A DNA stretch of 51,118 nucleotides, taken from contig JAJDAN010000084.1 of assembly GCA_029261855.1 (NCBI GenBank), positions 1 through 51,118 on the forward strand. The letters are read 5' to 3'. The position numbers and the translations under genes are program-made. This DNA comes from Deltaproteobacteria bacterium. GTDB lineage: Bacteria > Myxococcota_A > UBA9160 > UBA4427. Under the pieces are notes generated by a model. The model ran no database searches. It was given only the letters and a program-made list of their open reading frames with translations, and had not been told where the DNA came from. This document shows, in pieces, positions 8,815-46,088 of the stretch. Each line of letters begins with the position of its first letter. Position 1 is the stretch's first letter.

Positions 8815-9840
8815 TCAGCAGATCCGCGGCAGCAGCTCGCCGTCCGATTCGGCTACCAGCCGCCGCCCGAAGCCCGTGTCCAACACCACCCGCCCCGGAA
8901 GCTCGTCGCTGCAGCGGCCGATCCGGCATGCATCGCGGCCCAGTGGATGCGCGCGCAGGGCCTCGAGCACCCGCTTCGCCTCCTGCGGCCGGACGCCCAG
9001 CAGCGCCTTCCCCTCGTTCGCGACATGCAGGACGTCGATGCCGAGCAGCTCCGAAGCGGCGCGAACCGCGCGACGGACCGGGAGCGACACCTCGTCGAGC
9101 AGTACACCGACCCCGCTCTTCGCGGCCATCTCGCAGAGCGCCCCCGCGACGCCACCCCGGGTCGGGTCCTTCATGGCCACGACGGTCTCTCCGCCTGCGG
9201 CGAGCGCCCTAGCCACCAGACCGTTGAGCGGCGCCACGTCCGAACGCAGCTCGCCGTGAAGCGCGAGATCGTGACGCTCGGCCAGGACGGCGAAGCCGTG
9301 ATCGCCGAGGGTCCCCGTCACCAGGATCTCGTCGCCCGGTCGCAGTCCATCGTCGCGCACGATCCGGTCCGCGAAGCCGAAGCCGGTGGTCGTGATCACG
9401 ATGCCGTCGACCTCGCCGCGCCCCATGACCTTGGTGTCACCCGTATGGATCGCCGTGCCGGCTTCCGCGCACGCGCGCTCGATCGAATCCTGGATGCGAA
9501 GCAGCGCCGTGCGCTCGAAGCCCTCCTCGAGCACGATCGCGCACGCCAGTCCCAGGGGCTCGGTCGCGCCCATCATCGCCAGATCGTTGACGGTGCCCGA
9601 GACGGCGAGTCGACCGATGTCCCCGCCCCGGAAGAAGATCGGCTTCACGACATGTGCATCGGTGGTGTAGACGAGCCAACGCTCACCGACGCGGACGGCG
9701 GCGCCGTCGTCGAGCTGGGCGAGACCGAGGCTGTCTCCGCCGGCGTCGCCCGCGTTTCTCGCGAAGACGCTCTGAACCAGCTCGCGCATCGCGGGACCGC
9801 CTGCGCCGTGCCGCAGCCCGATCCGGTCGTCGCGAGTCAT
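8815..9840 (-). CDS. hypE: Hydrogenase maturation protein HypE
   Basis: A 341-residue ATP-dependent dehydratase of the PurM/ThiL fold that turns its carbamoylated C-terminal Cys into thiocyanate, the source of the cyanide ligands. The protein ends in P-R-I-C, the invariant C-terminal acceptor. N-terminal G-H-G-A-G-G-type and D-D-G-A-A motifs and the V-N-D-L-A-M-M-G-A core are present. The ATG overlaps the hypD stop (ATGA at 9837-9840). Confidence 0.95.
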   Translation of the reverse strand: MTRDDRIGLRHGAGGPAMRELVQSVFARNAGDAGGDSLGLAQLDDGAAVRVGERWLVYTTDAHVVKPIFFRGGDIGRLAVSGTVNDLAMMGATEPLGLACAIVLEEGFERTALLRIQDSIERACAEAGTAIHTGDTKVMGRGEVDGIVITTTGFGFADRIVRDDGLRPGDEILVTGTLGDHGFAVLAERHDLALHGELRSDVAPLNGLVARALAAGGETVVAMKDPTRGGVAGALCEMAAKSGVGVLLDEVSLPVRRAVRAASELLGIDVLHVANEGKALLGVRPQEAKRVLEALRAHPLGRDACRIGRCSDELPGRVVLDTGFGRRLVAESDGELLPRIC

Positions 9841-42554: not shown

Positions 42555-42712
42555 GCTCGCTAGGGGTCCTCCGGATGCGAGCACTGCCCACACGAATCCC
42601 GATCATACCGCCTTGGGGCGTCACCGCGACGCCGCCGCCCCGCGACCGGGCTTCGGGTCTATGCTCCGCCTCATCGAAACGCGGGCACGCCGGTTCGAGC
42701 GCAGGGAGGAAC

Positions 42713-44395
42713 ATGTCGTCAGCGAGATTCTCGAAGTGGGGCCTCGGCCTGTTGCTCGCGGTCGTCGCCCTCGGACTGCTGGTCTGGCTCAACGCGGCCA
42801 GCGTCATGCTCTTCGTCGTGGGCCTCGCGATGGACCTTCGCACCTCGGCGGGACCCAACCAGCCCGTCGTCTGGGAGACGGGAATCGACCCCGAAGGCCG
42901 GGCCCCCGCGGATCGCCCGCCGAACATCGTCCTGATCCTGGCTGACGACCTCGGCTGGAACGACCTCAGCTTCCGCGGCGGCGGCGTGGCCGGGGGCACC
43001 GTTCCCACCCCGAACATCGACTCGCTGGCCACGGACGGGGTTTCGTTCGCAAACGGCTATGCGGCCAACGGGACCTGCGCGCCGTCCCGGGCGGCCCTGC
43101 TTTCCGGGCGTTACGGAACGCGCTTCGGCTTCGAGTTCACCCCGACGCCCCCTGGCATGCAGCGCATCGTCGGGGCCATCGCGTCCGGCGGAACGCGCCT
43201 GCGCCCGCCCATCCCGAACGAGACTCCGAATGAGAACGGCGGGGGTAGTCTCGACTACGCCGACATGGGGATGCCGGCGTCCGAGATCACCGTCGCCGAG
43301 CTACTCGCCGATCGCGGCTATCACAACGTGCACATCGGGAAGTGGCACGTGGGACGCACCAACGGCATGGCCGCCGAAGACCAGGGTTTCCACGAGAGTC
43401 TTCTCATGGCCAGTGGCCTGTACCTGCCGGAAGACGACCCCGGGGTCGTGAACGCCAAGCAGGACTTCGATCCCATCGACCGCTTCCTGTGGGCCGCGAT
43501 GAACTACGCCGCCTCCTTCAACGGGGGCGACCTGTTCGAGCCGCGCGGCTACCTGACGGACTACTACACCGAGGAGGCCGTCAAGGTCATCGAGGCCAAC
43601 AAGGACCGTCCCTTCTTCCTCTATCTGGCGCACTGGGCACCGCACACGCCGCTGCAGGCGACCGTCGCCGACTACGAGGCCCTCGGTCACATCGAGCTGC
43701 ACCGCGAGCGCGTCTACGCGGCCATGATCCGCGCCCTCGACCGCGGCGTCGGACAGGTCCTGCAGGCGCTTCGAGACAACGGCCTCGAAGAGAACACCCT
43801 GGTGATGTTCACGTCGGACAACGGCGGCGCGGGCTACATCGGGCTCGCCGAGGTGAACGCGCCGTTTCGCGGCTGGAAGATCACCCTCTTCGAGGGTGGG
43901 ATCCATGTGCCGTACCTGATGCGCTGGCCTGCGAGGCTTCCGAAGGGCGTCGAGCTGACGAACCCGGTCCACCACTTCGACATGTACGCGACCGCCGCGG
44001 CCGCCGCAGGCGCCGCCCTGCCGACGGACCGGAAGATGGATGGCGTCGACCTCGTCCCCTACGCCACGGGCGAAGCCGAGGGCGTCCCGCACCGGACGCT
44101 CTTCTGGCGCAGCGGCACCTCGCAGTCGGCCCTCGTCGACGGCTGGAAGCTCAACGTCAGCGACCCACCGGGCCGCGAGTGGCTCTTCGACCTCGAGAAC
44201 GACCCAACCGAGAGCGTCGATCTCGCCAATGCACGACCGGACAAGCTGGCCGAACTGAAGGCAGCTCTCGCCGCCCACAACGCGGAACAGCTGCCGAGCC
44301 GCTGGCCGAGCGAGGGCTCGTTCTCTGTCAATATCGACAAGGACCTGAGCCTGCCCGACGCTCCGGACGACGAGTACATCTACTGGTCGAACTGA
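42713..44395 (+). CDS. Membrane-anchored sulfatase
   Basis: A 560-residue type I sulfatase. One N-terminal hydrophobic helix (about residues 10-43) anchors it, with the enzyme domain presumably in the periplasm. N-I-V-L-I-L-A-D-D-L-G-W starts the domain with the metal-binding Asp pair. Cys122 in C-A-P-S-R-A-A-L-L-S-G-R is the residue oxidised to formylglycine. H-I-G-K-W-H and S-D-N-G-G are the other active-site motifs. A formylglycine-generating enzyme is not encoded in the window. GGGAGGA lies three bases before the ATG. The substrate class (steroid, aryl or carbohydrate sulfate) is not evident. Confidence 0.92.
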   Translation: MSSARFSKWGLGLLLAVVALGLLVWLNAASVMLFVVGLAMDLRTSAGPNQPVVWETGIDPEGRAPADRPPNIVLILADDLGWNDLSFRGGGVAGGTVPTPNIDSLATDGVSFANGYAANGTCAPSRAALLSGRYGTRFGFEFTPTPPGMQRIVGAIASGGTRLRPPIPNETPNENGGGSLDYADMGMPASEITVAELLADRGYHNVHIGKWHVGRTNGMAAEDQGFHESLLMASGLYLPEDDPGVVNAKQDFDPIDRFLWAAMNYAASFNGGDLFEPRGYLTDYYTEEAVKVIEANKDRPFFLYLAHWAPHTPLQATVADYEALGHIELHRERVYAAMIRALDRGVGQVLQALRDNGLEENTLVMFTSDNGGAGYIGLAEVNAPFRGWKITLFEGGIHVPYLMRWPARLPKGVELTNPVHHFDMYATAAAAAGAALPTDRKMDGVDLVPYATGEAEGVPHRTLFWRSGTSQSALVDGWKLNVSDPPGREWLFDLENDPTESVDLANARPDKLAELKAALAAHNAEQLPSRWPSEGSFSVNIDKDLSLPDAPDDEYIYWSN

Positions 44396-44429: not shown

Positions 44430-44455
44430 ACTCGAAGGGGAAAGGAGAACACGCC

Positions 44456-45262
44456 ATGAGCGATTCCGCCGGGCTCGCGACCTGGGTCCCGAAATTCGAC
44501 GCGTGGAAGGCAGAGGCGATCCCGATGTTCGGCGCCGGCAAGGCGAAGGAGGCCTTCGCGAGCTACCCCTGGGTCACCACCACCGGCGACCCCTTCGTCC
44601 GGCTCGATAAGCCCGCGTCGGAAGCGCGCTTCGGTCTCATCACGACGGGGGGCTACTCGATCGAGGGGCAGCACGAGCGGTTCTCGGGCTTGCCGGACTT
44701 CGGCGACTCCGCGCCGGACTTTCACGCAATTGGGCTCGACGCCGACCCCACGACGTTCCGGATCGACCACCACGGCTACGACCATCGCTTTGCGAAGGAG
44801 GACTTCAACGCGAACCTGCCGCTCGACCGACTGAAGGAGATGGTCGCCGACGGCGAGCTCGGGTCGGTCGCGAACGACACGATCGTGCTGATGGGGCTGG
44901 TTCCGAACGTCGCGCCCCTGGTCGAGGAGACGATCCCGCGCATCGTGGAGAAATTTCGTTCCGATTCCGTGGAGGCGGCGCTCCTCGTTCCCTCGTGACC
45001 CGTCTGCCATCAGACCGTGAGTCTGATCGCACGAGGTCTCGAGTCGGCGGGAATCCCGACGGCACTGGTTTCGGTGATGCCTCCGCTCAGCAGCGCAGCG
45101 CGACCTCCCCGCCAGCTGATCCGCCGGCTCAACATCGGCGCCACCGTGGGCCGCCCCGGCGACGTTGCGGGGCAGAAGGACACGCTCCGCCGCATGGTCG
45201 CCCTGATCGAAGACGCGGCGGCCTTCGGGGCCGTAGACAAGGACGCAAAGGACGCATCGTGA
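44456..45262 (+). CDS. Selenoprotein, glycine/sarcosine/betaine reductase B-like family (UGA = Sec)
   Basis: Read through the in-frame TGA at 44996-44998, this is a 268-residue protein with selenocysteine at position 181. The codons around the TGA give L-L-V-P-S-U-P-V-C-H-Q-T-V, the U-P-x-C-H-Q motif of the proteobacterial selenoprotein-B-like family. The same frame stays open and conserved-looking afterwards (S-L-I-A-R-G-L-E-S-A-G-I-P-T) until TGA at 45260-45262. The N-terminal half includes G-L-I-T-T-G-G-Y-S and a H-H-G-Y-D region. A SECIS-like hairpin begins 10 bases after the TGA. Known relatives are redox selenoproteins with poorly known substrates. A plain truncated protein of 180 residues is the alternative, but would end exactly at the active-site motif. 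AAGGAG precedes the ATG. Confidence 0.88.
45009..45027 (+). promoter_or_regulatory. Bacterial SECIS-like hairpin
   Basis: ATCAGAC (45009-45015) and GTCTGAT (45021-45027) pair perfectly over seven bases around the loop CGTGA. The GU of the loop is at 45017-45018, 18 bases after the UGA, within the distance expected for SelB-binding elements in bacterial reading frames. The hairpin lies inside the coding sequence. Confidence 0.8.
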
Positions 45263-45275
45263 AGATGGAAGCTCC

Positions 45276-46088
45276 ATGCCGGACGCGCTGATCACGGAAA
45301 GAGAAGGTCGCGTCGTGACCCTCATCAACAACGACGCCCCCTACAACCGCATGACCCTCGACTTCATGGACGAGCTCGAGGAGCTCGTCCCGAAGCTCGC
45401 CCGCGACGCGAGCGTCGGTGCCGTCGTGATCCGCGGCGCCGGGGACGAGCACTTCTCGGTGGGGATGAACCTCAAGCAGCTCGGCGAGGGGACCCGGCGC
45501 AAGGGGAGCTTCGAAGGCGTGCTCGACCAACGCCTGCGGGTGATCTCGAAGATCGAACGCATGTCGAAGCCCTGGATCGCGACGCTCTACGGCTTCTGTC
45601 TGGGGGGCGGGCTCGAGCTTCCCCTCGGCTGTCACTTCCGGCTCGCCGCGCAGGACGGTGCGCAGATCGGGCTGCCCGAAATGGATCTCGGCACGGTTCC
45701 CGCCTGGGGCGGAAGCGCGAGGCTCGCCCGCTGCGTTGGCCGAGATCACGCGTTGGACATGATCCTACGGGCGAAGAAGATCAGCGGCCCCGAAGCCCTG
45801 CGGATCGGACTCGTGCAGGAAGTCTGGCCAAACGACGAGCTGCAGGCCCGCGCCCGGGATCTCGCTCACGAGCTTGCCGCCCAGCCGTCCGGGGCGGTCG
45901 CGGGCGTGCTCGACGCCATCGTCGGGTCCGGCGCCCTGTCTCTCGAAGAAGGCATCGCGGCGGAAAGACGAGCGGTCGTCGCCACCTTCGGGACGAAGGA
46001 GAACCAGGAGGGCATCCGCGCGTTCCTCGAGAAGCGAGCGCCTGTCTTCTACCCGGAGAACGACTCGAGTCCCGATTCCGACACGTGA
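45276..46088 (+). CDS. Enoyl-CoA hydratase/isomerase family protein
   Basis: A 270-residue crotonase. Both hydratase glutamates appear to be present: one in G-G-G-L-E-L-P-L-G-C-H and one in G-L-P-E-M-D-L-G-T-V-P-A-W-G-G. The CoA-binding loop is H-F-S-V-G-M-N-L-K. True hydratase activity is therefore likely, unlike the crotonase inside the hyp operon. It begins 13 bases after the selenoprotein ends, with GGAAG before the ATG, so the two are probably co-transcribed and may act in one pathway. Confidence 0.88.
   Translation: MPDALITEREGRVVTLINNDAPYNRMTLDFMDELEELVPKLARDASVGAVVIRGAGDEHFSVGMNLKQLGEGTRRKGSFEGVLDQRLRVISKIERMSKPWIATLYGFCLGGGLELPLGCHFRLAAQDGAQIGLPEMDLGTVPAWGGSARLARCVGRDHALDMILRAKKISGPEALRIGLVQEVWPNDELQARARDLAHELAAQPSGAVAGVLDAIVGSGALSLEEGIAAERRAVVATFGTKENQEGIRAFLEKRAPVFYPENDSSPDSDT

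Follow-up and report, generated by a model that had tools for sequence, protein, structure and literature searches.

An apparent stop codon that almost certainly encodes selenocysteine in a PrdB-like protein of a deltaproteobacterium

A reading frame interrupted by TGA can be the remnant of a gene, two genes, or a single gene in which the codon is not a stop, and the locus described here raises the question of which applies. It lies on the forward strand of a 51,118 nt stretch of a deltaproteobacterial genome (the window), where translation of positions 44456-45262, stop codon included, yields 180 residues, a TGA as codon 181 (44996-44998), 87 further residues and a terminal TGA (45260-45262). 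This corresponds to a 268-residue protein of the PrdB/GrdB superfamily, with the internal TGA predicted to be decoded as selenocysteine (Sec181). The initial annotation had placed the frame and its internal TGA at exactly these coordinates, and its reading of the surrounding residues as LLVPS-U-PVCHQT also agrees with the translation, as does its prediction of how a standard caller would divide the locus, the mechanically-called ORFs being 44456-44998 and 45017-45262. AGGAG, a likely Shine-Dalgarno sequence, stands 8 nt upstream of the ATG (44443-44447), and the TGC at 45005-45007 encodes the partner cysteine, Cys184, with which the U-x-x-C motif ends and which is invariant across alignment A1 as well as the ortholog group. 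Judged from the sequence, the apparent mid-gene stop almost certainly codes for selenocysteine, making this one 268-residue enzyme; standard annotation would divide the gene into two meaningless fragments, which this reading corrects.

Both sides of the TGA belong to the same family. Against the PrdB model TIGR04483, the first half alone aligns to positions 14-144 with 63 bits; the second half, likewise by itself, aligns in register to positions 150-227 with 41 bits, in keeping with the earlier claim that the downstream part resembles the family's C-terminus. The codon itself is conserved: in a search of 98 genomes, comprising the source genome and its relatives, 69 had homologs, almost all matches carried exactly one TGA, and the TGA occupied the residue-181 codon in 61/61 aligned distinct genes (three of them from the source genome), which are about 29-72% identical. 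Relative to ten close orthologs, sharing 64-72% identity, pN/pS was 0.16-0.43 downstream of the TGA, indicating purifying selection, and 0.40-0.56 upstream, with the downstream value the smaller in each of the ten pairs, these figures being rough as synonymous sites are far diverged. Hence, with both halves matching PrdB in register, an invariant TGA and selection acting beyond it, a chance origin of the two-part frame is excluded.

The orthologs also dispel the concern, raised in the initial annotation, that close homologues might end at the same stop. All ten read through the TGA to a conserved C-terminus, with a terminal TGA or TAG at about the same place as in the window, one (L142) extending into a run of N. 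In a further ortholog (L144:6001-6480, in G085:C266), about 60 codons are deleted in frame, by natural loss or assembly error, taking with them both the UGA and the hairpin described below and leaving the frame open; this copy is hence apparently not maintained universally. Beyond this lineage, cysteine stands at this position in 80/80 distant relatives at 31-36% identity, mainly from Alpha- and Betaproteobacteria, a ratio that is biased because they were fetched partly with a pattern containing Cys, and which therefore provides no estimate of frequency. The pairing of Sec with Cys in homologs, a criterion for bacterial selenoproteins, was found here with a pattern that favoured Cys. In a quickly-inferred, midpoint-rooted tree, the sampled Cys proteins formed one clade, adjoining the third PrdB-like copy of the source genome and one relative.

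Decoding of UGA as selenocysteine would depend on an mRNA structure, and a candidate SECIS hairpin begins 10 nt 3' of the TGA (45009-45027), with a 7-bp stem, ATCAGAC/GTCTGAT, and the loop CGTGA, placing G and U at loop positions 2-3. The bSECIS model specifies a loop of 3-9 nt, an upper stem of 4-16 bp, a G at loop position 1 or 2, a UGA-to-loop distance of 16-37 nt, and a minimum free energy of at most -7.5 kcal/mol (PMC13188914). The hairpin falls within every one of these limits, having a 5 nt loop (CGUGA in the RNA), a 7 bp stem and a distance of 17 nt from the UGA, with -15.2 kcal/mol calculated for the 47 nt following the UGA. The stem is fully paired (7/7) in 60/61 TGA genes and paired at 6/7 positions in the other, yet is fully paired in just 3/80 Cys genes, though the residues encoded there are nearly identical. 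This contrast offers a clean natural control for SECIS requirements. Shuffling of synonymous codons gave full pairing in 4% of cases on average and 11% at most, and for the window gene alone the hairpin had P = 0.002 under such shuffling. Compensatory changes were evident at two stem pairs. The first base of a Thr/Ser/Ala codon covaries with the third base of a Ser/Gly codon as A-U, U-A or G-C, giving a covariation score of 0.361 versus 0.171 in shuffles, none of 500 of which scored as high (counts on 24 sequences). Sliding the partner by 1-3 columns reduced pairing from 99% to 13-40%. An Rfam scan of the window, which is not a test for bacterial SECIS elements, returned zero matches.

The source genome, 98.6% complete, is also equipped to use such a signal. 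It contains selA (517 bits), selB (273 bits), selD (338 bits) and a tRNA-Sec with anticodon TCA, and so all four of selA, selB, selC and selD, the last three of which the initial annotation had made a condition of its proposal. The selD gene (L010; G000:C24:63971-64897, minus strand) itself has an in-frame TGA, within the motif GGUARK, and hence encodes a selenoprotein too. A separate segment of the window's minus strand, 9034-9735, matches the SelD profile weakly, with 61.6 bits against a cut-off of 125, and is probably another AIR-synthase-related protein. Across the 98 genomes, a TGA-containing homolog was present in 67/87 of those with selA versus 1/11 of those without (Fisher p = 2e-5, uncorrected for kinship), such that, of the 68 genomes carrying a TGA copy, 67 also possess selA; the exception (G063), which is 85% complete, has TGA copies and a SelB-like fragment (183 bits), with selA undetected.

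Two readings would deny the codon its role as selenocysteine. That the TGA is a true stop, in a locus that is a pseudogene, contains a sequencing error or codes for two separate polypeptides, accords with the two ORFs of a standard caller and with the use of TGA to end other genes here, the frame at 44456-45262 included. However, it would leave unexplained the same codon in 61/61 genes from many genera, the selection acting on the downstream half, and a covarying hairpin that accompanies TGA and not Cys, and the GTG at 45017 from which a second polypeptide would start has no recognisable Shine-Dalgarno sequence; pseudogene and sequencing error are both ruled out by the conservation of the TGA, the downstream half and the C-terminus, and this reading as a whole is very improbable. 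The cysteine at residue 181 of distant homologs might instead suggest that UGA is read as Cys by suppression, or else as Trp or via general readthrough, which we consider just as improbable: the genome has complete Sec machinery with a tRNA-Sec(UCA), a SECIS-like hairpin sits at the right distance, TGA copies are almost wholly limited to selA genomes, and TGA is also the terminal stop of this frame and, with 32/61 entries counted, of roughly half the aligned genes. It is therefore with high confidence that we regard 44456-45262 as one selenoprotein gene, its UGA predicted to be read as selenocysteine via the SECIS hairpin.

A different alternative, compatible with this decoding, is that the protein is the PrdB of a genuine D-proline reductase, or a GrdB. 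The family search of the joined sequence, suggested by the initial annotation, gave PrdB as the best NCBIfam match of the 268-residue protein (120.2 bits over 14-227), and the U-x-x-C motif is like that of PrdB (PMC1088965). Yet the match is well under the equivalog cut-off of 300, and the GrdB model TIGR01917 was missed by more still (34.6 bits against 602). PrdA, the pyruvoyl subunit, and GrdA were unmatched in the source genome, in searches that had no positive control, the control genomes being equally empty, and the orthologs share no conserved partner gene. A true PrdB or GrdB is consequently unlikely, if somewhat less so than the two readings above. The original label of a selenoprotein B-like protein holds at the level of the superfamily, as Pfam GRDB (PF07355) is matched at residues 97-178 with 31 bits, exceeding its gathering cut-off of 22, but not at that of a subfamily, since the protein falls short of the PrdB and GrdB cut-offs and also of that for TIGR01918, which models the selenoprotein B subfamily (38.3 bits against 65). 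On these profile scores, the Sec181 protein should not be named a glycine or proline reductase.

What the selenoprotein does can be approached by analogy with its better-known relatives. SelB carrying Sec-tRNA(UCA) would bind the hairpin at 45009-45027, enabling UGA 44996-44998 to be decoded as selenocysteine. Following PrdB/GrdB chemistry, the selenol of Sec181 would then act as a nucleophile, attacking or reducing a small substrate, with Cys184 resolving it as a selenenylsulfide that a thiol/thioredoxin system would re-reduce. This redox role, with a selenol nucleophile resolved by Cys184, seems reasonably likely. The predicted structure, of medium confidence (pLDDT 66, pTM 0.74), places Sec181, in the motif U-P-V-C, after the strand 174-178 and directly before the helix 182-197, and a strand-to-helix junction is a usual site for a catalytic selenol or thiol. 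Given this placement, the missed cut-offs, the lack of a PrdA or GrdA match and the unconserved neighbourhood, the protein is probably, by analogy, a stand-alone selenol/thiol (U-x-x-C) oxidoreductase, and not a D-proline reductase; its substrate is probably neither D-proline nor glycine. Searching solved structures by sequence found no convincing relative of the protein, and a Foldseek fold search with the medium-confidence model was uninformative (best E 0.02). A VIA match to microcystinase C (Z 9.1, 158 residues, 11% identity) may, in a comparison dependent on the model, reflect merely a common alpha/beta arrangement.

The neighbouring genes were considered as a route to function, which failed because ortholog neighbourhoods differ. 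In the window, a sulfatase gene lies upstream (42575-44395, forward strand) and an enoyl-CoA hydratase/isomerase gene starts 13 nt 3' of the selenoprotein gene (45276-46088, forward strand), with which it is possibly co-transcribed; neither is retained beside the orthologs, among which no partner gene is conserved. The genes that do adjoin orthologs, read by eye, are what we take to be look-alikes of MDR dehydrogenase, PEP synthase, acyl-CoA dehydrogenase and P450, and of amidohydrolase, amidase and flavin monooxygenase. Several of these resemble acyl-CoA enzymes or enzymes that use oxygen, from which one may guess at a possible role in the metabolism of lipids or xenobiotics. In three loci of one genus (L140, L142 and L143, in G011:C114, G023:C33 and G023:C266 respectively), the selenoprotein gene is preceded by an ORF on the same strand and of the same length, which reads as an amidase in L140 and L143, the two copies inspected, and was not seen beside the other orthologs.

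The window gene is one of several of its kind. The source genome encodes two further, diverged PrdB-like paralogs, each with one in-frame TGA, and up to seven homolog matches occur per genome in this lineage. The second copy (L023, L145; G000:C39:16178-16825) has the motif U-P-L-D-H-Q-T, in which aspartate takes the place of the partner cysteine, and the nine U-P-L-D genes form one clade with 98% support. The third (L024, L146; G000:C21:16097-16708) has U-P-V-C-H-Q-T and, in the tree, adjoins Cys-containing proteins of Proteobacteria. The other subfamilies that were tested likewise fell under the PrdB, GrdB and selenoprotein B subfamily cut-offs. We tentatively suggest, at slightly less than even likelihood, that within this bacterial class a PrdB-like selenoprotein has diversified into five or more subfamilies (U-P-V-C-H, representing two or more, with U-P-L-D-H, U-P-M/L-C-N and U-P-D-C-C), which operate without a pyruvoyl subunit and catalyse reductions unlike those of the namesake amino-acid reductases. 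If so, one subfamily has shed its resolving cysteine, and some copies adjoin genes resembling those of P450, acyl-CoA and xenobiotic metabolism.

Among known systems, the closest is D-proline reductase PrdB (TIGR04483), to which the Sec181 protein aligns over nearly the whole length of the profile (14-227 of 238), being of similar size and having its active-site U-x-x-C in the corresponding position. It differs in having about 40 N-terminal residues unmatched, in its score (120 bits, where the cut-off is 300), and in being accompanied in its genome by two diverged TGA-containing paralogs. With GrdB, GrdF and GrdH (PF07355, TIGR01917/TIGR01918), it shares the C-terminal Sec-bearing domain, but lacks the N-terminal ~200 residues of these 430-residue proteins. 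Marine metagenomes had yielded PrdB-like selenoproteins with a U-x-x-C motif by 2005 (Zhang et al. 2005, PMC1088965), and these rank among the most abundant selenoproteins both in the Sargasso Sea, with 42 such genes (PMC1088965), and in the GOS data, with 235, for which pfam07355 is listed in the table (Zhang and Gladyshev 2008, PMC2398784). Hence the Sec181 gene belongs to an already known kind, and its product is probably of the same broad type as these marine proteins, sharing the family name and U-x-x-C motif in a comparison made by description alone. Unlike them, it comes with a genomic context and several paralogous subfamilies, one of them U-x-x-D. The number of diverged TGA-containing copies within a lineage, including the U-P-L-D clade, may be the less familiar feature: a whole lineage employs selenocysteine in several diverged PrdB-like enzymes, for which the name of proline reductase is probably wrong.
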